Shown in pieces: positions 6,651-28,300 of a stretch of DNA of 46,604 nucleotides (position 1 is the stretch's first letter; each line of letters starts with the position of its first letter). Under the pieces are notes generated by a model that was not told the DNA's origin, made no database searches, and saw nothing but the letters and a program-made list of their open reading frames with translations. Source of the DNA: a virus; IMG/VR virus record IMGVR_UViG_3300034092_001736, positions 1 to 46,604 of that record; one strand, 5' to 3'. Both the position numbers and the translations under genes were made by a program.

Positions 6651-8213
6651 ATGCCGCGCATTCTAGCCTACACCGTTTCAGATCGCTCTTTCTTTGCCGG
6701 AACCTTGGCTGCGGTCAACTCGTTCCAGTATTACAACAAAGGACTCGGGGCGGATATTGTCGTTGTCAGCAGTGGTCAGTATAACGAGTGCCTGTCCGAG
6801 CCGCAGATCGAGATGCTTCGTGAGGCAGGAGCGACCGTGAAACTCCATACGGACTTTGCTGCGGAAGATCGGGTTCTTGGTGCGTGGCAGTTGAAGGCGT
6901 ATGGCCCATCCGACCTTTCGGAGAACTACGATCTGATCATCGGGTTCGATTCCGATCTGGTGTTCTGCTCAAGCATTACTGACATTGTCGCTGGGTGTTT
7001 ATCCACTGGGTTGATCATGGGTGGTCGTGATGGGGGTGGGATCGCCTATGACGAATCTTACTCTGCTTATGGAATCGAACCAAGCTCCCGGAGAACCCCA
7101 TACATGTCCACATCGTGTTACTTCCTTCCTGTTACGGAAGTTACTCGGAAGATTCTTCGGCTATGGGCGGATCGGACTAATTTTGCTGTATATGGACCAC
7201 AAGAGAAGAAGGTGTATGCGGGGCATGGAGACCAAGGAGTCTTGAACGCTTGCATCTACGCTGAGACGAAACACGCCAACGTGAAGCTGCTCGACAACGA
7301 CACATGGAGCCAGCACTGGGTCTTTGAGGACCATGTGCTGGAATGGAACGGCACTGAACTCTGGAACTACTCAGCGAAGAAACAGATGCGGACCATTCAC
7401 TGCGTTGCGACCGACAAATTCTGGACCAAAGGTTGCTCCGACAAGAGGGAAACGACCGGGGGCAGTCAACGGTGGGCTTATGCCCACTTCTTGAACATGC
7501 TGTTCTTGGCTGGACCTCCGTGGACCAAGGATCCTGCGTGGATGATCCCCAACAACCAACACCACTTGTTTGCTGACTTCATCCACTACCACCAGTTGAT
7601 CCGGGTAATGGAACCTCAGTTCCGAGAGATTTATGAAGATAAGATCGGGTGGCAGTGGTTGGCAAGGTTGTGTATCTCCGTTGACCAGCACCGGATGATG
7701 ACCCTTTGCGGGACGGGGTCGATGGATCGCTACATCGAATTGGTGCGGAGGTTGCCGGATAAGTCCCTCATCGTTGAAGCAGGGAGCTACATTGGTGGAT
7801 CCATTGTGACTCTTGCCGCCGCATTGCTGCCCCGCAGACACACGATCTGGACCGTGGAGTCTTTCACCGGGAATCTCGACAATACTGTGGACGGTTGGCC
7901 TTTGCCCACGTTGAAGAAGTATGTGCAGAACACCAAGGTCAACCTCCCATTCCTCAACCTCAACATTGCCCAGCTTCCCGGTCAGTATGCCGCCGACATG
8001 TTTGAAGACGAGTCCATCGACTTCATGTTCATCGACGGGGACCACAGCACCGAAGCAGTCCTGAGGGACATCGAGATCTGGTTGCCCAAGGTGAAGAAGG
8101 GTGGGATCCTTGCCGGGGATGACATCGACTGGGCTACGGTCAAGGGTGCGGTTGAACAAAAGTTTGGGACCAACTACGAGTCGGTCCAAGAAGTCTGGAG
8201 CGTTGTAAAATGA
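6651..8213 (+). CDS. Glycosyltransferase (GT-A type) fused to SAM-dependent methyltransferase
   Basis: The 520-residue protein has two enzyme domains. The N-terminal part (1-about 300) looks like a GT-A fold glycosyltransferase near the GT8 type. It starts with a beta-strand and nucleotide site, and YDLIIGFDSDLVF holds the metal-binding DxD (D100-S-D102). A His/Trp-rich acceptor region follows (GHGDQGVLNA, SQHWVFEDH). The C-terminal part (about 355-520) is a class I methyltransferase of the Methyltransf_24 type. Motif I is IVEAGSYIGGS (374-384), and MFIDGDHSTE (459-468) and KKGGILAGDDID carry the acidic metal and SAM residues. It probably adds a sugar and then methylates that glycan. It overlaps the sulfotransferase gene by ATGA. 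The donor and acceptor cannot be read from sequence. Confidence 0.8.
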   Translation: MPRILAYTVSDRSFFAGTLAAVNSFQYYNKGLGADIVVVSSGQYNECLSEPQIEMLREAGATVKLHTDFAAEDRVLGAWQLKAYGPSDLSENYDLIIGFDSDLVFCSSITDIVAGCLSTGLIMGGRDGGGIAYDESYSAYGIEPSSRRTPYMSTSCYFLPVTEVTRKILRLWADRTNFAVYGPQEKKVYAGHGDQGVLNACIYAETKHANVKLLDNDTWSQHWVFEDHVLEWNGTELWNYSAKKQMRTIHCVATDKFWTKGCSDKRETTGGSQRWAYAHFLNMLFLAGPPWTKDPAWMIPNNQHHLFADFIHYHQLIRVMEPQFREIYEDKIGWQWLARLCISVDQHRMMTLCGTGSMDRYIELVRRLPDKSLIVEAGSYIGGSIVTLAAALLPRRHTIWTVESFTGNLDNTVDGWPLPTLKKYVQNTKVNLPFLNLNIAQLPGQYAADMFEDESIDFMFIDGDHSTEAVLRDIEIWLPKVKKGGILAGDDIDWATVKGAVEQKFGTNYESVQEVWSVVK

Positions 8214-18406: not shown

Positions 18407-20549
18407 TGATATCGAATCGCTCCTCGATCCCGATTGTCCAGACCTTGCCGCCACCGCTTCCGATGGACCGGACGGGTCTGAGCTTTGTGTTGGACTTGTA
18501 AGCCTCCTCCATCGCTGCAATGCCGCGACGGACGAACTCAAGGTTCGCTGACTGCCCAACGTGGCGACCGTTGTTGAACTCCTGCACCAGCACTTGGAAT
18601 TGGGTGATGGTCCCCACCCACTCGGTCATGGTTGGGTTTGCGTCCCGGCAGTGGATAGCGAAGAACTCGACCAATTCCGCAATGGAGGATCTGCTGGAGT
18701 TGTCGTAGGCAGCGGAAGCGATGGACTCGTCAATGTAGCTTTCGATGCCGAAACGTGAGTAGACCTCGATGTCCTGAGGCACCTTCCAATCCAGAATGTA
18801 CTTGCAGAAGTGGGGGAGTTCCTTGTCGATGGTATCTTCAAGGATGTTGTTGGGCGGGAAGTTGCTCGTTGCGGTCTCGCTGATCAGGAGCGCGAGCAGC
18901 TTGTCCCGGTTGGAGCTATCCAACGCAGGGATGACCGACAGACTGTTCGCGTCCATGTTGAGGGACAGGATCACCCTGCCCGTCCACGGGATCGAGACGG
19001 CATCGACATATTTGGCGTGATACTCGATCCGGGGGTTGGCGACCGCTCGCTTGATCAACTCCGTCGCCTTGCGCTGGTCTTGGAATGACGCGGCGGAGAC
19101 GGTGTCATCAATCACCCATGCGGCAACCCGTGCGAGATCCTTGTTGAACTTCGTCTGACCAGAGAGATACTCGGACGCATCGGCAAGCCCCCCGACCATT
19201 GCGGAGATAACCTTGTTGGACAGCAGGGACTTCCCCTTGTTGGTGGGTCCGACAAGCAGCAGGGCTTGTCCTTGGCAGAACCTGCGATTGAGGACCGCTT
19301 CGTAGAACCGCTTGATCCACGCAAAGAGGTAGTCCGTCGCGGGTCGGGGTCCATGGATGCCCTGCGCCGGGACGAACATCTGGTTGAGCCACCCGTGCAT
19401 GAAAGGCCAAAGGGCGGGGTCACCGTTGTCGGCGGGTTCGATGGGTTCAATCGACGCTGAGTTCAAGATCCGATGCCCGTTGTGGTCAACGATTCGGTCG
19501 GACGAAAAGACGACCGGGGCGATTTCATCCACCCGATTGTGGTTGGAGATAGCGAGAACCGCTTGCTCGATCTCTGACAACACTTGGTTCTTCTTCGGTT
19601 TCGCGGAGAAGTTCGCTGCCTTCAGTTCCAGCAGAAGCTGGTCCTTCGGTATGATGACGGAATTCCCGTTGAGCAGCTTGAAGAAGCTCTTCCCGTTGAA
19701 CCAATACTCATCGAGGACGATCCCGATCTTCTTGCGTTCGTATTGCTCGATGAACTTCTTGCCGAGGATCTCCCTCCAAGAGACGAACCCCTTCCCGGCG
19801 CGATCACTGTAGCAGATAACCCCGTCTTCAGCGATCTGGCAACCGTCGCGGTTGACTCCGTCGTCAATCCAGAACAACGGACCCCGTGCTCCGACTTCGA
19901 TGTCCCCGTGCCACCGACCGGGATACTGCGCCTCGATCTCCGCCGCAATGACATCCATGGGGATGGTTGTGTCGGATGATGTCGGTGGACGGATCCCGGC
20001 AACCTTGACAAGGGCAGTGTGGATGAAATCGACCGGGACTGCGGCACCCATTTTGGTCCAGTCCGTTCCGATCTCGTAATACTGGGTCGCTTTGTAGGAG
20101 CACTCATCGAATCCAGCAAGTGCCTTTGGGGCTTTGAGGCTCCGCGCCAGTTCGCGGATGAAGGCATCAAACATGTTGGGATCGATGGGCAGGATCTCCT
20201 CAAACTCCCAGATCATTCGGATGTATCCGCTGAACGTCTTCGTGATCCACGTAGGTGCCACCGGAAGGGCTGCGTTGATGATGTCCTTGACCGAGAACCA
20301 ATCAACAGGCGCATCGAAATCCGCGATGAATCCGCCGACCTTGTTGACGGGGTTCTTGCTGGAGACTCGCTTTCGCGGAGAGTCTCCTTCGCAGTAGCTG
20401 ATAAAGGCGTGTTTCGTGTCTGCTGCCGCGCACCAATCACGGAACTCTGCCTTGTTGTCGAAAGGTGGGACGGCACAGCTTTTCGATTTTGCTTGTGGGT
20501 CGTCCAGCTTCTTTGCGTCGTCGCTTCTCAGGTTATCTATGTATCTCAT
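18381..20549 (-). CDS. Primase-helicase (primase-like N-terminus plus SF3/D5-like helicase)
   Basis: The ATG at 20549 overlaps the polymerase stop as ATGA, giving 722 residues; an ATG 18 codons earlier lies inside the polymerase gene. The N-terminal half has a primase-polymerase look (VGGFIADFDAP with a D-x-D pair, CSYKATQYYEIG). The C-terminal half is a superfamily 3 helicase. The Walker A is VGPTNKGKSLL (434-441) and the Walker B is AAWVIDDTVS (D481-D482). A sensor region follows at RVILSLNMDA, then a winged-helix-like tail. It should unwind the fork and prime synthesis for the neighbouring polymerase. The primase call is less certain than the helicase call. Confidence 0.8.
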   Translation of the reverse strand: MRYIDNLRSDDAKKLDDPQAKSKSCAVPPFDNKAEFRDWCAAADTKHAFISYCEGDSPRKRVSSKNPVNKVGGFIADFDAPVDWFSVKDIINAALPVAPTWITKTFSGYIRMIWEFEEILPIDPNMFDAFIRELARSLKAPKALAGFDECSYKATQYYEIGTDWTKMGAAVPVDFIHTALVKVAGIRPPTSSDTTIPMDVIAAEIEAQYPGRWHGDIEVGARGPLFWIDDGVNRDGCQIAEDGVICYSDRAGKGFVSWREILGKKFIEQYERKKIGIVLDEYWFNGKSFFKLLNGNSVIIPKDQLLLELKAANFSAKPKKNQVLSEIEQAVLAISNHNRVDEIAPVVFSSDRIVDHNGHRILNSASIEPIEPADNGDPALWPFMHGWLNQMFVPAQGIHGPRPATDYLFAWIKRFYEAVLNRRFCQGQALLLVGPTNKGKSLLSNKVISAMVGGLADASEYLSGQTKFNKDLARVAAWVIDDTVSAASFQDQRKATELIKRAVANPRIEYHAKYVDAVSIPWTGRVILSLNMDANSLSVIPALDSSNRDKLLALLISETATSNFPPNNILEDTIDKELPHFCKYILDWKVPQDIEVYSRFGIESYIDESIASAAYDNSSRSSIAELVEFFAIHCRDANPTMTEWVGTITQFQVLVQEFNNGRHVGQSANLEFVRRGIAAMEEAYKSNTKLRPVRSIGSGGGKVWTIGIEERFDIIKNLHGLS

Positions 20550-22321
20550 TTTTCGTATTGATTCAAAATTTTCCCTTCGGCACTGAGCGGAATGTCGATC
20601 CACTCCGGGGGTGTTGACATGATGCGAACAACTTCCTTCAAAGTCTCCTCTGCGGTTTCTTCCGGGGTTTCAATGACGACCTCATCATGCACGTGGAAGA
20701 GCAGCTTGTAACCTGCTTCATGAAGGCTCACAATGTGGTGGCAGAAGATGTCCCGCGCAAGAGCTTGGGAGGCGTTTTCCGTTATGACCCCACCCCACAC
20801 CCGTGTCTTTCTCTTACTTCCCCCAATGATCTTGTCGATAACGCACTGCCTCCCTCCGTTGTGAGAAACAAACGAAATCCCAGAGTAGCCGAGGGATCTC
20901 CCGGACGGAAGCTTGAGATCCCACTTCCTCCCAGACCCGATGTTCTGGAACGCTGCGTAGAGACAGGAGTCGTAGTGCCCCCAAAGCTTGGGGACTTTTG
21001 GCAGTGCCCTGCGGTAGAGGTGGACTGCCTCAAAAGCCTCGACCATGTCCATAGCGGAGATCTCCGCGAACTTCTTCGCACCCGCGCCGTATCCGCAGCC
21101 GAGGACGATGGTCTTGACCTTGTGTCGGAGCTTGGGGTCTTCAGCCCTGAGCGAACCCCGCTCCTTGGACCACATCCCGAAACGGATTGCGAAGACCTCG
21201 TAGATGTCATCCGCTGCGGCAATCTCTTCCAACAGGGCATGATCCCCTGCCAACCATGCCAAGGTTCGGACCTCGATCTGGGACAAGTCAACCACCACGA
21301 ATTTCTTCCCGGCTGGAGCGGTAATCAAAGACCGCAGGTTGACCCCAAACATTTCCGCACGGGGGAGGTTCTGGATGTTGAAGTTGCCTCCGCTCCCGGA
21401 GAATCGTCCGGTGTGCGCCCCGAAGTAGGTCAGACCAATGTAGCACCGACCAGATGCGCTGGTTGAGTGGTCAATGGACTCCAGCTTCTTCTGGAGCGCG
21501 TTGATCCTGCGCCAGTTTCGGACTGCCTCGACCCACAAGAACTTCTTACCGTGGCGGCGAATCCAATCCTCCGCCTCCGGGTCGTCCATCGCGAGGCTTT
21601 TGGGAGGTTCCAGCCCAGCCTCCCGGCAAGCGTTGTTGAAAGCTTTCGGACTCAGGATCGGGGATTCATCCGCCCAAGGAACCTGCTGCTCGACTTTGTG
21701 TAGCTCCTCCTTGAGGAATTCCTTCTGAGTCTTGAGAGTCTTTGCATCAACAGGGACACCGTTCCTCAAGATCGCACGGTTGATGCGGCTGATTTTCCGC
21801 TCCACATCGGGCCATTCCTCCGACACCGCATTCCACAAATCGAGACAGAGGATACTGTCCTTGATAGCGTAGTCGCTCACCTGCTTTTGGAACTCCGGGG
21901 TCATGTCACCCCAATTCTGTCCCTTCATGTTGTCACGGACTTCCTTCGATACCTCGACCCCCAATACCTCCTTGGAAGCGTTCTTGAGAGCACGGGGCAG
22001 ACCTAGGAACGATGCCATGTCAGCGGTACAGTTCCATTCGACAGGCTCCGGTCCCGACCACCACCCCTTCGCGAGTCCCTCATGGTAAAGCAACTCATCG
22101 AAAGCTGCGTTGTGGGAGATGGCAATGTTCCCCTCCAAGAACGACCAATCCAATTCCTTGGGGGATCCTGCGTAGATAAACTCTCCCTCATCGTCCTTCG
22201 CATAGACCGTGACGAGGTAGGCATCGAAAGCATAGTGGTTGAAGTAACCCTTCCAGCCCAACGTCTTGATGCTGCACTCGTTGTCGTAGTAGGTCTCAAA
22301 ATCGACGGCAAAAACTCTCAT
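20546..22321 (-). CDS. DNA polymerase, family A, with 3'-5' exonuclease
   Basis: The 591-residue protein has the full T7/Pol I-type set. Exonuclease motifs are VDFETY (D7, E9), ISHNAAFD and YAIKDSILC. Polymerase motif A is VVDLSQIEVRTLAWLAGD (D345), motif B RHKVKTIVLGCGYGAG (about 398-412) and motif C HVHDEVV (543-549, D546). It replicates phage DNA. At under 600 residues it is shorter than T7 polymerase and lacks a visible thioredoxin-binding insertion. It is followed by, and overlaps, the primase-helicase gene. A terminator stands just upstream, so its expression may depend on read-through or antitermination. Confidence 0.93.
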   Translation of the reverse strand: MRVFAVDFETYYDNECSIKTLGWKGYFNHYAFDAYLVTVYAKDDEGEFIYAGSPKELDWSFLEGNIAISHNAAFDELLYHEGLAKGWWSGPEPVEWNCTADMASFLGLPRALKNASKEVLGVEVSKEVRDNMKGQNWGDMTPEFQKQVSDYAIKDSILCLDLWNAVSEEWPDVERKISRINRAILRNGVPVDAKTLKTQKEFLKEELHKVEQQVPWADESPILSPKAFNNACREAGLEPPKSLAMDDPEAEDWIRRHGKKFLWVEAVRNWRRINALQKKLESIDHSTSASGRCYIGLTYFGAHTGRFSGSGGNFNIQNLPRAEMFGVNLRSLITAPAGKKFVVVDLSQIEVRTLAWLAGDHALLEEIAAADDIYEVFAIRFGMWSKERGSLRAEDPKLRHKVKTIVLGCGYGAGAKKFAEISAMDMVEAFEAVHLYRRALPKVPKLWGHYDSCLYAAFQNIGSGRKWDLKLPSGRSLGYSGISFVSHNGGRQCVIDKIIGGSKRKTRVWGGVITENASQALARDIFCHHIVSLHEAGYKLLFHVHDEVVIETPEETAEETLKEVVRIMSTPPEWIDIPLSAEGKILNQYEK

Positions 22322-22416: not shown

Positions 22417-22596
22417 TCAGTTGACACCAAGATTCAATTCCGGGTTGGCGTTGAGGACAGACTCGATGCATTCCTGCACTAACTTGATGCGGTCGATCTC
22501 ACGGTCGATCTCGTTCTGCTTCTCCTCAAGCTTCTTGGTGAGGAAGTTCAACTCAGCGTTGTAATCGCGGAGTGCTTTGAGGTCAGGTGCCGTCAT
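22417..22596 (-). CDS. 59-residue coiled-coil protein (unknown)
   Basis: The frame runs from ATG at 22596 to TGA at 22417-22419, and its start overlaps the preceding gene's stop as ATGA. The product is one long charged helix (NAELNFLTKKLEEKQNEIDR and onward) with a single Cys and a C-terminus ending NPELNLGVN. It probably forms a coiled-coil dimer. Coupled translation suggests it works with the 205-residue protein upstream. It is the last gene before the terminator. Confidence 0.65.
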   Translation of the reverse strand: MTAPDLKALRDYNAELNFLTKKLEEKQNEIDREIDRIKLVQECIESVLNANPELNLGVN

Positions 22597-23210
22597 GCCG
22601 AGAACTTGTTGAGGAACTCAAGGATCTGGGGGTTGGTCTCCTTGGAAGTGACCTTCAGTGAAGGTACAAACCAAGAGTGAGGTCCACGCTGAAGGAGAGA
22701 GGACTTGAACTCCCACTCGACCTCAGAGATGCTCCGAGGACTGTTGGCAGCAGCCCAAGTGGCGAGTGCCTTGTAGGTCATCCGGTAAGCGTCCTTGTGA
22801 ACGTGGATCTTTCCAAGAGCGCAGAACTTGCCGCCCAAGGGAAGGGGATAGACGGACGGATCGGGATCCTCATCCGGGGATTGGAAGAGCAGAGTGATCT
22901 CCGCGAATTCAATGACCTTGTGGTCGGACTCGTCCCGGAGGAGAGCGGCATCCGCTTCGTTGTAAGCCATACGGCACACGGCGTCGCTGCCGTAGGGGAT
23001 GTCTTCCTTCCAACCCTTGATCGGGTTGATGACGGTGACGGGGATAGCGGTTTCCTTTTCGGCAAGAACGTGCGTCTTGTCGAGAACGATGGACCCGACC
23101 GGAGCGTCGATGTTCGACGTTTTCTGGATCAGGTTGATGCGGGGGATGTCGATATCATCTGCGGAGATGAGGAATCCCTTGGCGGGTTGGACTTTTGCGA
23201 GTTCACTCAT
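22593..23210 (-). CDS. Possible ssDNA-binding protein of the replication/recombination block
   Basis: The ATG at 23210 (MSELAKVQPAKG) is chosen; the longer frame upstream runs through a Lys/Arg/Ser-rich stretch that looks non-coding. The 205-residue protein has IPRINLIQKTSNIDAP, a beta-rich core (GSIVLDKTHVLAEKETAIPVTVI, GGKFCALGKIHVHK) and Trp/aromatic residues, ending PQILEFLNKFSA. Phages often keep such a protein between exonuclease and polymerase genes, where it serves as single-strand binder or annealing partner. No OB-fold signature or acidic C-terminal tail is seen, so this is a context call. Confidence 0.5.
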   Translation of the reverse strand: MSELAKVQPAKGFLISADDIDIPRINLIQKTSNIDAPVGSIVLDKTHVLAEKETAIPVTVINPIKGWKEDIPYGSDAVCRMAYNEADAALLRDESDHKVIEFAEITLLFQSPDEDPDPSVYPLPLGGKFCALGKIHVHKDAYRMTYKALATWAAANSPRSISEVEWEFKSSLLQRGPHSWFVPSLKVTSKETNPQILEFLNKFSA

Positions 23211-23247: not shown

Positions 23248-24114
23248 TCAGGAGAGCGTGAATCGCTCCTCAGAGGTCTCAAGGATCTCATGTGAATCGA
23301 GATCGTCAAGAAATTCTTTTTGTTTCGCGGACTTTTCACCTTTCGGTGCCTTATCTCCAATGCTCTTGGCGAGCTTACCGATGGGAAAGGATGCCATGGA
23401 GAGAAGCTCCTCCTCAGTAAGTCCGTAATCCACAGCTACTTCGATCAGCTTCTGGTTGTCCGCGCACCGCTTCGTTTGACCCATCGAGCGAAGACGAAGA
23501 GACGGGAAGGTGAACCCATCCTTCGCCAGTGCGACCATCCGGGATCGGAACGTATCCGCCCAATTCGACACAACCTTGGCGATTCCATACACATTCTCCA
23601 ACGTCTCAGGATCCGCGTTTTCCGGGTCGAGGGAGTCGGGGAGTGCGACTCCCAGCTTGTCGGCAACGCCGAGCACCAGACTTCCCAAAGCGGGGCAATT
23701 GGACTCGTAGGCACAGAAGCGACAGTTCTGGGAAGGGTTCAATTCCTCCAACGACGGAGTGCCCCGTGACCATTTGGAGCGCACGTAAGCGGCACGGGCA
23801 ATTACCACGCTGACCTGTTCCCGAAGGGATTCAAGGTCTCCACGATGGAAGGTATGGTTGGGGGTATCGTTGTAGAACGGGATGTAGAACACGAAGGTCA
23901 CAGTGTCGATGTCAGGGAATTTCTCAAAGACCCCGATGGTGTATGCCTTTGCTTGCCAGTTCTCAGACGGGTGATCGATCTGGGACACGCCCGTCTTGTA
24001 GTCAGCAAGCAGTGCCTTCTTGTCCTTGATCGTGAGTCGGTCGCAGGTTCCGTAGGTTTTGAGTCCGTAGTTGAGCGGGATCTCCAATTGGATTTCGTGG
24101 TATTCTGTAATCAT
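23248..24114 (-). CDS. RecB/Cas4-like PD-(D/E)XK nuclease, C-terminal subunit (split gene)
   Basis: This 288-residue protein holds the back part of an iron-sulphur exonuclease. Motif II is GTCDRL (D25), motif III LLADYKTG (D38, K40) and motif IV QAKAY (Q54). A C-x2-C-x5-C triad (C131, C134, C140, in CRFCAYESNC) follows. In Cas4/AddB-type nucleases these three cysteines join a fourth near the N-terminus to hold one 4Fe-4S cluster. That fourth cysteine and motif I are missing here but are present in the separate 81-residue product of 24576-24821. The ATG overlaps the stop of the 74-residue gene (ATGA). It probably degrades or processes DNA ends in recombination once paired with the N-terminal piece. 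The remaining C-terminal 120 residues are helical. Confidence 0.8.
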   Translation of the reverse strand: MITEYHEIQLEIPLNYGLKTYGTCDRLTIKDKKALLADYKTGVSQIDHPSENWQAKAYTIGVFEKFPDIDTVTFVFYIPFYNDTPNHTFHRGDLESLREQVSVVIARAAYVRSKWSRGTPSLEELNPSQNCRFCAYESNCPALGSLVLGVADKLGVALPDSLDPENADPETLENVYGIAKVVSNWADTFRSRMVALAKDGFTFPSLRLRSMGQTKRCADNQKLIEVAVDYGLTEEELLSMASFPIGKLAKSIGDKAPKGEKSAKQKEFLDDLDSHEILETSEERFTLS

Positions 24115-24335
24115 TGCTTTTCACGTTTCAGATATTTGACAAATTCAGCGATGTTCTTGGGGGTTGCACTGGACCAAAGGCACTCCCGTTTTTCACGGCA
24201 CCACCATCCGTACATCATATGGAGAGTTTCATCATCAAACTTGGCAAGGAGTTCGTTCTCCCTAAGGCGACTCAGGTCTTTTGCTTGCGACTTGTCCAGC
24301 CACTCGCCAACAGTATAGGATTCAGTTTTTGTCAT
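24111..24335 (-). CDS. 74-residue protein nested inside the split nuclease locus (unknown)
   Basis: The product begins MTKTESYTVGEWLDKSQAK and has a Trp/Cys-rich patch (YGWWCREKRECLW, about 42-54) and a basic helical C-terminus (EFVKYLKREKQ). It overlaps the 85-residue gene upstream by 14 bases and the nuclease C-terminal gene by ATGA. It lies entirely within the 476-bp segment that separates the two nuclease parts. I do not recognise a family. A small nuclease-associated or host-directed protein is possible. Confidence 0.6.
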   Translation of the reverse strand: MTKTESYTVGEWLDKSQAKDLSRLRENELLAKFDDETLHMMYGWWCREKRECLWSSATPKNIAEFVKYLKREKQ

Positions 24336-24579
24336 TGCTAGTCAATCTCCAAAGGGTTCCCTTTCGGCAATTGTTAAATGACTCCTTGTGGAGTCGTCGT
24401 GGGTCTCCTGTCATAACCAAGTGTAGCTTGGTTTCATTTAGCACTTTCGTGATGTTCGTTGTCTTCGGCCATGCAAGAGCTTTGGTCAAGTCCCGGATGT
24501 GCCATTGTTTGCCGTCACTCAACAGGAGCAGCAATCTGTCACGGATATCCGCCCGTTGTCCGTACCGTAGTGACCTCAT
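24322..24579 (-). CDS. 85-residue winged-helix-like protein nested in the split nuclease locus
   Basis: The ATG overlaps the stop of the nuclease N-terminal gene (ATGA). The sequence RADIRDRLLLLLSDGKQWHIRDLTKALAWPKTTNITKVL has the helix-turn-helix then wing pattern of MarR/wHTH proteins (helix about 10-19, recognition helix about 35-47). A Trp-containing strand (KGTLWRLTSNDKN) at the end could be the wing. DNA binding is likely, and a regulator of the early operon is one option. It is basic overall. The name rests on the pattern only. Confidence 0.62.
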   Translation of the reverse strand: MRSLRYGQRADIRDRLLLLLSDGKQWHIRDLTKALAWPKTTNITKVLNETKLHLVMTGDPRRLHKESFNNCRKGTLWRLTSNDKN

Positions 24580-24821
24580 TCTGCGGTGAATTCTGCGAGG
24601 AACTTGGACTCCATCTCTACAATCTTGTCGTAGATGCCGACTTCCTCCTCGTCGTGGAGTGCGGAAGGATCTCGGGTTTCAAGAGCTTCGTGAATGCGGG
24701 TTCCTTTTTCGGCTGCGGCGTTGCTGCCGCTGATACCTTGGTATCCGGGGCATCCGGCAACATACTTCAATGAGCTTGGGGAAAACACTGCGTGTCCCCG
24801 GTTTGCGTGGTCTGGTTTCAT
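24576..24821 (-). CDS. RecB/Cas4-like nuclease, N-terminal subunit (split gene)
   Basis: This 81-residue protein carries exactly what the 288-residue nuclease lacks. FSPSSLKYVAGCPGYQG (13-29) is the usual nuclease start with the first iron-sulphur cysteine (C24). AAAEKGTRIHEALE (35-48; H44, E45) is motif I. It ends SKFLAEFTAE, and the C-terminal gene begins MITEYHEIQLEIPL. Joining at the shared GAA codon would give an uninterrupted 365-residue protein. The stop overlaps the 85-residue gene, and the start overlaps the stop of the 69-residue gene, both by ATGA. It is either a functional subunit or a remnant; the retained motifs favour function. Confidence 0.78.
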   Translation of the reverse strand: MKPDHANRGHAVFSPSSLKYVAGCPGYQGISGSNAAAEKGTRIHEALETRDPSALHDEEEVGIYDKIVEMESKFLAEFTAE

Positions 24822-25027
24822 TCGTCGTTTAGTAGGTTCATCAAAATTGTTTTTACCTCGTCTTTGCTAACATCGAGGCGCAAGGATTCGATCAGGATTT
24901 TTAACAAGAACTGTGTGAAGTTTATGTCGCCAATCAGGGCATCGACGTTCATTACGAGTTCCGCAATCTCAGATTCCCCCATCGTGGTGACGATCATGTC
25001 GGCATCAATCTCTGGTTCCGTATTCAT
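24818..25027 (-). CDS. Small acidic protein (unknown), 69 residues
   Basis: The ATG at 25027 is chosen over a GTG eight codons upstream. The product (MNTEPEIDADMIVTTMGESE and on) is acidic and helical with a leucine-rich middle (FLLKILIESLRLDVSKDEV). It has no cysteine or membrane segment. It overlaps the 63-residue gene by 23 bases and the nuclease N-terminal gene by ATGA. The function is unknown. An acidic small early protein could be a host-factor inhibitor or DNA mimic, though nothing shows this. Confidence 0.55.
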   Translation of the reverse strand: MNTEPEIDADMIVTTMGESEIAELVMNVDALIGDINFTQFLLKILIESLRLDVSKDEVKTILMNLLNDE

Positions 25028-25196
25028 TTTCTGGGAAGGTAAAGTATTCACAGATCTCTAACATTATCGCATCATAGATCTCGTTCTTTAAAGATTCTTC
25101 AGATGGGTTGTCCGTATGCTTATGCGCCCGAGTAAACCCACAGTCAATTCCTTTTTCGATGCAGTCAGTAATGATCTTGTATTCGTTGGTTTTCAT
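25005..25196 (-). CDS. Small conserved phage protein (unknown), 63 residues
   Basis: The product reads MKTNEYKIITDCIEKGIDCGF, then TRAHKHTDNPSEESLKNEI and ends in an acidic aromatic part. The block G-F/Y-x-RAHKH-x-DNPSE is a pattern I recall from small proteins of marine T4-like and T7-like phages. No function is known to me. The ATG at 25196 falls one base after the previous stop; in-frame ATGs at 25205 and 25211 are possible but would overlap more. Confidence 0.65.
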   Translation of the reverse strand: MKTNEYKIITDCIEKGIDCGFTRAHKHTDNPSEESLKNEIYDAIMLEICEYFTFPENEYGTRD

Positions 25197-25197
25197 A

Positions 25198-25407
25198 TCA
25201 ACCATCAGCAAGCTTAAAAATCACATCGGGTTTAGCACCATCTTCCGGCATTTGGAATACCAGCATCGAGTAGATGCAGTCGAGGTCCATGACGATATCG
25301 TCCAGTGCCCTCTTCAAGATCGCTGGGTCGGACGGCATCGTATCAATACTACCTTGTTCGTGGTAGTGCCGCATTTCGAGTTTCACCTCGTCAAAGCGGT
25401 CGGTCAT
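25198..25407 (-). CDS. Small helical protein (unknown), 69 residues
   Basis: The ATG at 25407 overlaps the preceding stop by ATGA, the rule in this operon; an alternative ATG at 25431 would add eight basic residues. The product is helical with MTDRFDEVKLEMRHYHEQG, then DPAILKRALDDIVMDLDCIY and a C-terminus ending FKLADG. It has mixed charge, no membrane segment and no recognisable motif. It is probably an early protein of unknown role. Confidence 0.55.
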   Translation of the reverse strand: MTDRFDEVKLEMRHYHEQGSIDTMPSDPAILKRALDDIVMDLDCIYSMLVFQMPEDGAKPDVIFKLADG

Positions 25408-25613
25408 AATTTTTCGGAGGGACTTATCCATTTTCTTGTGATCTTTCTTTTGGTTTTGGGTGCTTGGAGTTCTTGCGCGAAAATCCGTTTGAGTTGATAA
25501 ACGGCACAGAACACTTCCATCATGTCGAGCCGGGACTCACGGGATGCCCACCCGCTGGCAGACTCGACCGATTCTATGACTTCCTCGATTGCTCGTTTGA
25601 GTTCTGGTTTCAT
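25404..25613 (-). CDS. Small helical protein (unknown), 69 residues
   Basis: The ATG at 25613 overlaps the stop of the 155-residue gene by ATGA; a longer frame upstream lies inside that gene and is rejected. The product starts MKPELKRAIEEVIESVESAS, continues as an amphipathic helix (DMMEVFCAVYQLKRIFAQEL) and ends with a basic tail (PKTKRKITRKWISPSEKL). No family is recognised. Confidence 0.58.
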   Translation of the reverse strand: MKPELKRAIEEVIESVESASGWASRESRLDMMEVFCAVYQLKRIFAQELQAPKTKRKITRKWISPSEKL

Positions 25614-26077
25614 GCGTCGTTGACTTGTGAGTCCTCCTCCCATTTGCCAATGGAGCGGAGGAACGCTTCGGTTTGTTGGCGAGCGGCGGCGTGAAGAATT
25701 GGAAAGCAGTCGTCGTTGCTCAATGGTGCAGGTTTCCACGCAATGACGCTGTCACCACCTTTATCTTTTCCCCAGTTAAGATAACGGGCACGATACCAAC
25801 ATGGGCTTACAACCCCGCCCGCAAGCTTGAAGAAGATCTTCGCGTTTCCACCGCACGGCATCGGGTCTCCGGGATGATGCACAATCCACTCGTCCGCGTC
25901 GGGTTCCAGCTTTTCCGGCTCTGGCTTGGTGCGGTCGAGTTCGGTAATCAGGGCGTCACCAAGCTCCACGGACCAAGATGCAATTACGGGCACGGGATGT
26001 GTTTCCCAGTATCCAAAGGCCAAAATTCCCTGCATCACGGCGGTTGCCGCTTGGAATCTTTGTTGTTCTCGGTTCAT
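25610..26077 (-). CDS. Early protein with Trp/Cys-rich C-terminal domain (unknown), 155 residues
   Basis: Residues 1-55 are helical (AATAVMQGILAFGYW, WSVELGDALITELDRT). Residues 60-120 form a compact Trp- and Cys-containing block (EWIVHHPGDPMPCGGNAKIFF, GGVVSPCWYRARYLNWGKDKGGDSVIAW). A helical tail ends EDSQVNDA. The HPGDPMPC...V-x-F/L-L-x-G...A..W layout is of a type I associate with small phage proteins of unknown function that occur in many phages. No enzyme motif is evident. The gene overlaps the next by ATGA. Confidence 0.6.
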   Translation of the reverse strand: MNREQQRFQAATAVMQGILAFGYWETHPVPVIASWSVELGDALITELDRTKPEPEKLEPDADEWIVHHPGDPMPCGGNAKIFFKLAGGVVSPCWYRARYLNWGKDKGGDSVIAWKPAPLSNDDCFPILHAAARQQTEAFLRSIGKWEEDSQVNDA

Positions 26078-26106
26078 ACAATTAAAAAGGTTGCCAATTT
26101 ACTGGA

Positions 26107-26463
26107 TCACTTCTGTCTTTGGTTCGGGAAGATCGCACGGAGCAGGAGAGGCTCCAGCCTACTCGCGATCCGTTCGTCTTCGGTGTCTGCGATGTGGTCC
26201 GGCGCGGACTGCTGTGCCCACCGCAGGTCGTGGACAAGAAGGTGCGCGACTTCGTGGACTGCTGTCGATATCAGGACTTTGTCTTTTTCCATAAGTGGCG
26301 AGTTGAACCGGACATAAGCGGTGCATTCGACCGAGTTCCGGTGAATGTCCGCGTAGCTTTTCAAGGTCGGGTCCGCCTCAAAGTGGGTCCGAAAGTGTAA
26401 CAACCCAAGAGCTTCCTGCGCCTTCTTGAACGCGTCGATGAAGATCTGGTCAGCGGTCTTCAT
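26107..26463 (-). CDS. Small zinc metallopeptidase-like protein (HEVAH)
   Basis: The ATG at 26463 overlaps the stop of the 26-residue gene by ATGA; an earlier ATG at 26484 is inside that gene. The 118-residue product contains STAVHEVAHLLVHD (H70, E71, H74), the HExxH zinc site, with an acidic helix downstream (DTEDERIASRLEP; E97 possible third ligand). It resembles SprT- and ImmA-type small metallopeptidases. In a phage early operon such a protein may cut a host repressor or another phage protein. The substrate is unknown. No signal peptide is present. Confidence 0.72.
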   Translation of the reverse strand: MKTADQIFIDAFKKAQEALGLLHFRTHFEADPTLKSYADIHRNSVECTAYVRFNSPLMEKDKVLISTAVHEVAHLLVHDLRWAQQSAPDHIADTEDERIASRLEPLLLRAIFPNQRQK

Positions 26464-26540
26464 GGTTCCGAAAAGTTCGCACACAGTGCGAGAGCGGTGA
26501 AGATCGAAAACATAACGACCAATATCACAGTTTCACTCAT
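26460..26540 (-). CDS. 26-residue single-span membrane microprotein
   Basis: ATG at 26540 overlaps the stop of the 67-residue gene (ATGA), and TGA at 26460-26462 overlaps the start of the metallopeptidase gene (ATGA). Coupling at both ends fills the gap between two genes exactly, which random frames rarely do. The product starts MSETVILVVMFSIFTALALC and ends ANFSEP: one hydrophobic helix with short tails. Its neighbour upstream is also a one-span membrane protein, so they may act together. The function is unknown. Confidence 0.58.
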   Translation of the reverse strand: MSETVILVVMFSIFTALALCANFSEP

Positions 26541-26740
26541 CGTTGCTCCTCCCAGTGAGACATGACACGAAGAGCGACAAGATCCCCGACCGTGGTTTCA
26601 AGTTCCATCTTGAGGTGGCGGATTTCGTCCTTGAGTCGTTGAATCTCACGATCCTTGACAGTGAAGGACAACCACGAAATTGAAATGCCGATGGATAGCC
26701 CAAGGCAGATACCGGACATGATCCCAAAGAAGTTGTTCAT
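26537..26740 (-). CDS. Membrane-anchored coiled-coil protein (unknown), 67 residues
   Basis: The N-terminal transmembrane helix spans about residues 4-27 (FFGIMSGICLGLSIGISISW). A charged coiled coil follows (KDREIQRLKDEIRHLKMELE) and ends SHWEEQR. The topology is like an i-spanin or a small membrane anchor, but it lies in the early operon, away from lysis genes. It overlaps both neighbours by ATGA. The role is unknown. Confidence 0.6.
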   Translation of the reverse strand: MNNFFGIMSGICLGLSIGISISWLSFTVKDREIQRLKDEIRHLKMELETTVGDLVALRVMSHWEEQR

Positions 26741-26952
26741 TCCAAGCTTTTGGTGGGTTGGGGTTTTGGTTTCGAGACGGGCTTGTCAAGGGGGATCCCT
26801 TTTGCGATCCGGTATCGATTCCGGTTGTAGTCCCGCGATTTCGTCGCGCAACTCGCGCAGCGGTTCTTGGTCCCGCCATCTCCCCCAAACGGAACCCGAC
26901 CGCACTGGAGGCAGAGTCCCTGTTCAATCTTTTGTTTTTGCCAATTATTCAT
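26737..26952 (-). CDS. Small zinc-ribbon-like protein, 71 residues
   Basis: The ATG at 26952 (MNNWQKQKIEQG) is preferred to one ten codons upstream that falls inside the helicase gene. Two Cys pairs are present, CLQCG (about 14-17) and CASCATK (about 32-35), with CxxC-x14-CxxC spacing as in zinc ribbons. A basic Tyr/Arg stretch (DYNRNRYRIAKG) and a Pro/Lys tail follow. It may bind DNA or RNA, for example as a transcription helper. It is a common layout in phage small proteins and is related to endonuclease-associated ribbons. Confidence 0.65.
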   Translation of the reverse strand: MNNWQKQKIEQGLCLQCGRVPFGGDGGTKNRCASCATKSRDYNRNRYRIAKGIPLDKPVSKPKPQPTKSLE

Positions 26953-26968
26953 GGTTCTACTATCTGGT

Positions 26969-28300
26969 TTACGCGACACCATGCAGGGTCGTCAAATTTT
27001 CAATTTTCCGCTGGAGTGCCTTGATGACCACCTCCTCGATGGAGTCCGCAGCGAAGAGCACCTTTTGAATCGCATCGGACTTGGCTCCGTTCCGGTGGAT
27101 CCGACCAAGGCACTGCATGTGGTTCTTGGCGGAATAGCACGGAGAGATCAGGGAGACCCGTGGGTAGTCTCCCTTGAGGTCGTGCAGCGAGATCCCGGTG
27201 CCCCCTGCGGCTATGTTGACGACCACTGCCCGTGCTTCGTCCCGCTGGAAACGGTCAATGGTCTCCTGCCGCTCCGATGCTGTCTGCCTACCGTCGATCT
27301 TTCCGCAACCAAGAGTCCGGGTAAGCGCATCGACCGTGTCTGAAAAATTCACGAAGATCACAACCGACTTGCCTTCAAGCAACAGGTCTTCCGCCATCTC
27401 CGCGATATCGGGAACCTTGAGCGACTCCGCCAACTGCCGTGCGCGTAGGATGTTTACGATGACGATGTTGTCCTTGTCCTCGACGGTTCCATTCTCGATG
27501 TAGTCCTCCATGATCTGCGGGGTCAAGCCCAGATCATCAAACGCCTTTCGGATCTTGGACAGGTTAGAGAACTGGATCGGTTCGTAGTGGACCATGTTTG
27601 CCCGAAAGGAGTCCGGGAAGTCCGCGATGCTGAGTTTGTGTGCTGCATGGTTGTCTCTTTCGTAAAGCTCGTTGCGGATGTTGGCGAGATACCGCTTCGC
27701 GACAAACTCCCACTGACCCCACGCGTTGCGGACACAACCGTGACGCATCATCCAAGAGAAAAAATTCGGCAGTCCGTTCTCCGCCTTATTGAGACTGTGC
27801 ATCTTCATTGCGAACCCCAGACCCCGCATCTCTGACGGGTTTTCCGCTGCGGTCGCTGACATGGAGTGGGTCACGTAACCTTGCTGAAGCAATGAAATGA
27901 ACAATTGCGCGTTCTGGGTGTATGGACCCTTGCACTTGTGAACCTCATCCAGCAGGACCAACGTGTTCTTTGGGAGCTTCCAAGTCATTATTTTGGATCC
28001 TTGCTTGGTCATCCACGAAGTCTTGCCTCCCCGGATCTTCTCGTAGTTGGTCACGAAGAGCGGAGTCACATTGCACTCAGCCAACTCGCGCTCCCACGAA
28101 GGGATCACTGCCTTGGGGCAAAGAACCGCAACGTGGTTGTCGGGTGCCTCGCAGTCCTGCACCCAATCCATGGCGAGTCTCGCCGCAACAACGGTCTTGC
28201 CCGTCCCGGTCGAGGAGGTGTCAAGGGTAGAGATCCCGGCCAAATGCTTGGTCCGAAAAAACTCCTTTGCTTCTATCTGCTTGTCGAAGAGTTGCTTCAC
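26969..28300 (-). CDS. DNA helicase, superfamily 2 (SNF2/DEAD-like)
   Basis: The 443-residue enzyme starts at GTG 28300; no ATG precedes the nucleotide site. Motif I is STGTGKTVVAA (GTGKT at 32-36), motif II LLDEVH (118-121), motif III SATAAE and motif VI QCLGRIHRNG (Q396, R400, R403). The second RecA domain includes VVIFVNFSDTVDAL and VVNIAAGGTGISLHDL, the SNF2-like ASxxxG block. It likely unwinds or translocates DNA in replication or recombination. It is shorter than most SNF2 proteins and lacks extra domains. A 12-bp inverted repeat lies between it and the resolvase gene. Confidence 0.88.
   Translation of the reverse strand: MKQLFDKQIEAKEFFRTKHLAGISTLDTSSTGTGKTVVAARLAMDWVQDCEAPDNHVAVLCPKAVIPSWERELAECNVTPLFVTNYEKIRGGKTSWMTKQGSKIMTWKLPKNTLVLLDEVHKCKGPYTQNAQLFISLLQQGYVTHSMSATAAENPSEMRGLGFAMKMHSLNKAENGLPNFFSWMMRHGCVRNAWGQWEFVAKRYLANIRNELYERDNHAAHKLSIADFPDSFRANMVHYEPIQFSNLSKIRKAFDDLGLTPQIMEDYIENGTVEDKDNIVIVNILRARQLAESLKVPDIAEMAEDLLLEGKSVVIFVNFSDTVDALTRTLGCGKIDGRQTASERQETIDRFQRDEARAVVVNIAAGGTGISLHDLKGDYPRVSLISPCYSAKNHMQCLGRIHRNGAKSDAIQKVLFAADSIEEVVIKALQRKIENLTTLHGVA

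Follow-up and report, generated by a model that had tools for sequence, protein, structure and literature searches.

A phage DUF2800-family nuclease gene divided by a two-gene insert: a probable two-chain enzyme with its predicted iron-sulphur cluster ligands distributed over both chains

Phage genes that were divided by an insertion and yet kept their function are already known. In Aeromonas phage Aeh1, the gene nrdA is split by mobE into nrdA-a and nrdA-b, and the split NrdA is fully functional; in Aeromonas phage 25, gp43A and gp43B co-purify and show polymerase activity; in T4, the topoisomerase gene 39/60 is split by mobA and function is kept by association of the chains (PMC2988022). In Cas4 and AddB, one N-terminal and three C-terminal cysteines hold an Fe-S cluster beside the RecB nuclease centre; replacement of any of the four cluster cysteines of SSO0001 gave insoluble protein (PMC3466216). 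A duf2800-gp2.5-polA module is known in phages (PMC8093625). The stretch analysed here (the window) is the whole 46,604 nucleotides of IMG/VR virus record IMGVR_UViG_3300034092_001736. Judged from sequence comparison, it very probably carries, in common with a few other uncultured phages, a DUF2800 nuclease gene that was broken once by a cassette of two genes unrelated to it and is now expressed as two re-associating chains.

The four genes of the locus are encoded on the minus strand in the order 81-aa, 85-aa, 74-aa and 288-aa, and every join is an overlap. The 81-aa gene (24576..24821) corresponds to the N-terminal piece of a DUF2800 nuclease: start, Cys24 and a G-T-R-I-H-E motif (phrog_69 exonuclease, E 1.5e-5; in-frame alignment with the N-termini of relatives; dN/dS 0.06-0.09). 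It is followed by two nested genes: an 85-aa gene (24322..24579), whose product is a predicted winged helix, and a 74-aa gene (24111..24335), which is kept in 5/5 contigs with the split and whose product has C46 and C52 in all sequences. The 288-aa gene (23248..24114) corresponds to the C-terminal piece (matches to PF10926, PF12705 and phrog_69) and contains G-T-C-D, D-Y-K, Q-x3-Y and C-x2-C-x5-C. The 81-aa and 85-aa genes share an ATGA stop/start overlap (24576..24579), as do the 74-aa and 288-aa genes (24111..24114); both are kept in the four other split contigs (L001-L004). The nested genes overlap by 14 nt (24322..24335), or by 8 nt in L002-L004. The initial annotation had described these four frames, their joins and this division of motifs between the 81-aa and 288-aa products, and all were confirmed. 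Overlapping frames on one transcript would permit coupled translation of the four genes.

The two outer products match successive segments of phrog_69 and are thus consecutive parts of one family: the 81-aa product matches profile positions 78-149, the 288-aa product position 193 onwards (6.3e-28). The 288-aa product scores above the curated cut-offs of PF10926 (66.9 bits; cut-off 21) and PF12705 (30.8 bits; cut-off 22), and alignment with uninterrupted relatives places the PD-(D/E)XK catalytic residues in it. By these sequence features the nuclease is a member of DUF2800/phrog_69, in the Cas4/AddB-like PD-(D/E)XK group. The catalytic core of the C-terminal piece comprises D25, D38, K40, Q53 and Y57. 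The four-cysteine pattern of Cas4/AddB is present, with Cys24 on the shorter chain (A) and Cys132, 135 and 141 (C-x2-C-x5-C type) on the longer one (B). In the numbering of an uninterrupted relative (L006), the nearly invariant residues are Cys25, H45 and E46 in the N-terminal part and E90, D107, D120, K122, Q136, Y140, C213, C216 and C222 in the C-terminal part; all are kept in the split proteins. An AlphaFold2 model of L006 (31 aligned sequences; mean pLDDT 82) has a Cas4/AddB-like Fe-S nuclease fold: its Foldseek matches in the PDB include AdnAB, Cas4 SSO0001 (structure 4ic1, E 5.8e-5), MGME1, RecE, Exo5 and AddAB, with low E values and modest TM-scores. The single-polypeptide state, usual in DUF2800/phrog_69 and not strictly defining, is absent from the split forms (two frames in 5 contigs, one in 58).

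Related viral contigs were gathered using both pieces and using relatives. The initial annotation had called for a search for uninterrupted genes; both nuclease parts were found in one open frame in 58 contigs spanning the break. Complete single-chain relatives are mostly 368-387 aa long; the 81-aa piece aligns in frame to their N-termini (53-79% identity) and the 288-aa piece to the remainder. Homologues of the 81-aa protein occurring without any nuclease partner had been named as evidence against a split nuclease. No such homologue was found in IMG/VR, since all 14 loci detected with this piece also hold the rest of the nuclease, split or uninterrupted; the sequence of L041 ends just beyond the break. 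A pattern search of bacterial genomes gave no relatives of the nuclease.

The identical split site and both inserted genes were found in five contigs: the window, L001, L002, L003 and L004. L003 and L004 are nearly identical, and the clearly distinct split sequences number three. Maximum-likelihood analysis of 37 sequences places all split forms in one clade with 100/100 support, which points to a single insertion event, retained since. The stem branch of this clade is long (0.72).

In the AlphaFold2 model of L006, the break falls in the loop that links a predicted helix (residues 59-80) to the first strand of the core (86-96); this is the most length-variable place of the family alignment. 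The two matching GAA codons at the junctions are separated by 476 bp, as implied by the initial annotation, and removal of 476 bp does yield 365 residues. This is not quite the family size that had been claimed: uninterrupted relatives have about 3 to 6 more residues in the break loop, so that the joined protein is shorter than they are. The clean insertion that such a deletion would imply is therefore not supported; as the loop is left a few residues short, either the ends of the insert may have been trimmed or the ancestral loop may already have been short. The hexamer CAGAAT is present at both junctions as described (24102 and 24578), with a third copy at 24590, 12 nt upstream of the junction copy. 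In the sister phages L002 and L003, the upstream junction copy reads CAGGAT. CAGAAT is thus not a secure footprint, and its interpretation as an insertion scar is weakened.

Both nuclease pieces are free of stops and frameshifts. Between the window and L002/L003, dS is about 1.0-1.3 and dN 0.07-0.10 in both; dN/dS is 0.056/0.087 for the N-terminal piece and 0.080/0.083 for the C-terminal piece. The pieces of the window and L001 do not differ in amino acids and are separated by 4 and 16 synonymous changes. By these comparisons both halves are under strong and similar purifying selection, which indicates that both are still in use; given the synonymous divergence and the low dN/dS, the fission has been tolerated over a long divergence. 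Purifying selection, on the same kind of evidence, acts on all four genes of the locus. Of 158 nuclease columns that are otherwise conserved, 19 differ in the split clade, none of them catalytic or cysteine positions. They include a PVR motif that has become PFY around residues 157-158 of the joined sequence. With the long stem branch, these changes make some alteration of nuclease function after the split possible.

The products of the nested genes have no Pfam or PHROG match, and PDB searches with both sequences gave chance-level matches only. The AlphaFold2 model of the 85-aa protein (pLDDT 74.6; only four sequences used) has the order H-H-H-E-E, and its structural matches in the PDB are largely winged-helix proteins. 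The winged-helix-like gene of the initial annotation is upheld by this predicted fold, with moderate confidence; the PDB matches are weak, none being better than E 0.02 (best E 0.023). Its dN/dS is about 0.05. Of the four genes, the 74-aa one has diverged furthest, its synonymous sites being saturated relative to L002/L003. Relatives of the nested proteins outside the split clade were found neither in INPHARED phages nor in IMG/VR nor in 14 long contigs of uninterrupted relatives.

Two features of genes in pieces are found here: uninterrupted homologues, and a coding insert within the gene. A homing endonuclease insert, usual in such genes and not strictly defining, was not found; this cargo was rejected because neither nested protein has a Pfam or PHROG match and the first is a predicted winged helix. 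The window and L001 diverge strongly only at 24448-24109 (dS 0.19 and 0.81 vs 0.08 in the nuclease pieces), and a segment of the insert appears from this pattern to have been exchanged by recombination between the two lineages. The divergent tract (24109-24448) covers most of the insert and stops at the start of the 288-aa gene.

The surroundings of the nuclease gene differ between split and uninterrupted forms. In many uninterrupted relatives, the nuclease start lies no more than a few tens of bases from the end of the helicase gene, or the two overlap; others have a spacer of a few hundred bases. A single frame of about 827 aa encodes both proteins in L026-L029 (2402-4882 in L027), a fusion which suggests that the adjoining helicase of other phages works with the nuclease. 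The split clade has 1.6-3.5 kb of small genes separating the helicase (443 aa in the window; 26969..28300, minus strand; PF00271, phrog_62) from the nuclease. This gap is 2147 nt in the window vs 3461 nt in L001, and its gene content differs. The variation in gap and in small-gene content marks this border as a site of repeated small-gene gain. The intragenic cassette resembles a gain of this kind, placed about 240 bp deeper, inside the nuclease gene. Most likely, the nested genes encode small phage proteins of independent nature that entered the accessory region between helicase and nuclease.

This accessory region (24818-26982) varies in content between close relatives. Its gene nearest the nuclease (77 aa; 24818..25051, minus strand) has an ATGA overlap with the 81-aa gene and is found in all split contigs; L001 carries a paralogue of it at 715-1047. 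A small protein with an HEVAH motif (26107-26484), weakly SprT-like and below the Pfam cut-off, is kept in L001 and L003. Downstream of the nuclease, on the minus strand, lie a 205-aa gene (22593..23210) and then a family A DNA polymerase gene (20546..22321; PF00476, 1.1e-31; phrog_17, 5.2e-86). The 205-aa gene adjoins the nuclease in most relatives whose contig extends that far. Family searches with its product gave no match and sequence comparison no tie to gp2.5; it may be a gp2.5-like single-strand-binding protein by position only. A DNA methyltransferase-like gene (6651-8213; phrog_2675) is located outside the replication operon.

From these data we infer that the chains reassemble, which the similar constraint on the two pieces supports indirectly, that they form an active nuclease holding an Fe-S cluster, and that the genes are translationally coupled. 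In the ancestor of the split clade, a two-gene cassette would have entered a surface loop of a nuclease gene belonging to a replication/recombination operon. Since then, one operon with overlapping frames, probably coupled in translation, would have supplied the two chains, which would find each other to form the nuclease. Cys24, the His/Glu motif and the helices of the N-terminus would come from chain A (81 aa). The beta-sheet core would belong to chain B (288 aa), together with the D/D-x-K active site and the remaining three cysteines, metal cluster and fold being completed across the chain interface. Provided that the split nuclease adopts the fold of its relatives, its cluster can only be completed by both chains together. 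The initial annotation had proposed a nuclease divided over two chains in this way, and the comparison with relatives supports that reading.

The nested proteins could be more than passengers; the initial annotation had suggested that they are perhaps regulators or partners. As obligate subunits or assembly factors they would make a four-chain enzyme, the winged helix binding DNA and the 74-aa protein bridging or regulating; a selfish or accessory insertion would then have created a hetero-oligomeric Fe-S enzyme with its own DNA-binding or regulatory subunit. This reading is clearly the less probable one, without being far-fetched. Both nested genes are carried by all five split contigs (5/5), in the same order and in overlapping frames; both are strongly constrained (winged helix, dN/dS about 0.05), and neither turned up without the split. 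Their strict co-occurrence and the strong constraint on them mildly favour a partner role. The co-occurrence may however be plain descent, as there is one clade with one origin; the 74-aa protein evolves faster (67% identity vs 88%), and part of the insert has apparently recombined between the window and L001 lineages while the nuclease pieces show no amino-acid change. A divergent tract flanked by nuclease pieces unchanged in amino acids mildly favours a passenger role.

Decay of the nuclease is unlikely. The insertion would have inactivated it, leaving remnants or pieces with separate new roles, and the long stem branch and the changes at conserved columns (e.g. PVR to PFY) could be read in this way; yet dN/dS is below 0.1 in both pieces despite near-saturated synonymous change, every catalytic and cysteine residue is retained in frames without stops or frameshifts, and the window yielded no second DUF2800 gene. 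It is more doubtful still that a single protein arises from the two pieces through RNA splicing, protein splicing or ribosome bypass. The bypass site of T4 gene 60 has matching codons with a stop right after the first, and the window likewise has GAA codons flanking the break, with a stop directly after the first. The matched codons are however lost in L002/L003 (GGA vs GAA), the whole insert is coding sequence, and the pieces, about 476 nt apart, lie in different frames. The insert gave no Rfam match at E up to 1 that would indicate an intron and no intein family in Pfam or PHROGs, and the RNA at the presumed take-off is not unusually structured (z 0.32); intron, intein and bypass were rejected on these grounds. 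An assembly error or sequencing artefact is conceivable for a metagenomic virus record such as the window, and has almost no probability left: the same arrangement in four more, independent contigs, from four IMG data sets and with up to 12-15% amino-acid divergence, already refutes it.

The two-chain nuclease resembles Aeh1 nrdA in that a phage enzyme gene is broken by a coding insert and uninterrupted relatives exist; the two chains of Aeh1 NrdA give a working enzyme (PMC2988022), and by analogy those of the window nuclease may do so. In Aeh1 nrdA the insert is one homing endonuclease gene; in the window it comprises two genes that lack an endonuclease signature, and they interrupt a DUF2800 nuclease. 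This indicates that insertional fission of phage enzymes can involve cargo other than homing endonucleases. With T4 gene 39/60 and phage 25 gene 43A/43B the locus likewise shares the division of a DNA-metabolism gene in connection with an insertion (PMC2988022). These are other enzymes, and their fission is endonuclease-linked. To our knowledge, no metal cluster is shared between the chains of either.

As far as the open-access literature was searched, two features are new: a two-chain DUF2800/Cas4-like nuclease with its predicted cluster ligands divided between chains, and a two-gene cargo without homing endonuclease in a split phage enzyme. The locus shows a Cas4/AddB-like nuclease that was split in nature and has stayed so during evolution, the four predicted ligands being divided one to three, and it offers a ready-made split point for studying two-chain assembly of clusters and active sites. 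The downstream gene order resembles the duf2800-gp2.5-polA module, the gp2.5 slot being assigned by position only (PMC8093625). The window nuclease shares with Cas4 (SSO0001) and AddB the one-plus-three cysteine pattern, from which the Fe-S cluster itself is predicted; unlike in these proteins, the first cysteine is on a separate chain, and the nuclease is not classed as a Cas4, the TM-scores being modest. With the DUF2800 (PF10926)/phrog_69 exonucleases it shares sequence family, catalytic motifs, four cysteines and a polA neighbour; unlike the near relatives examined in that family, which have one chain in 58/58 cases, the split clade uses two.
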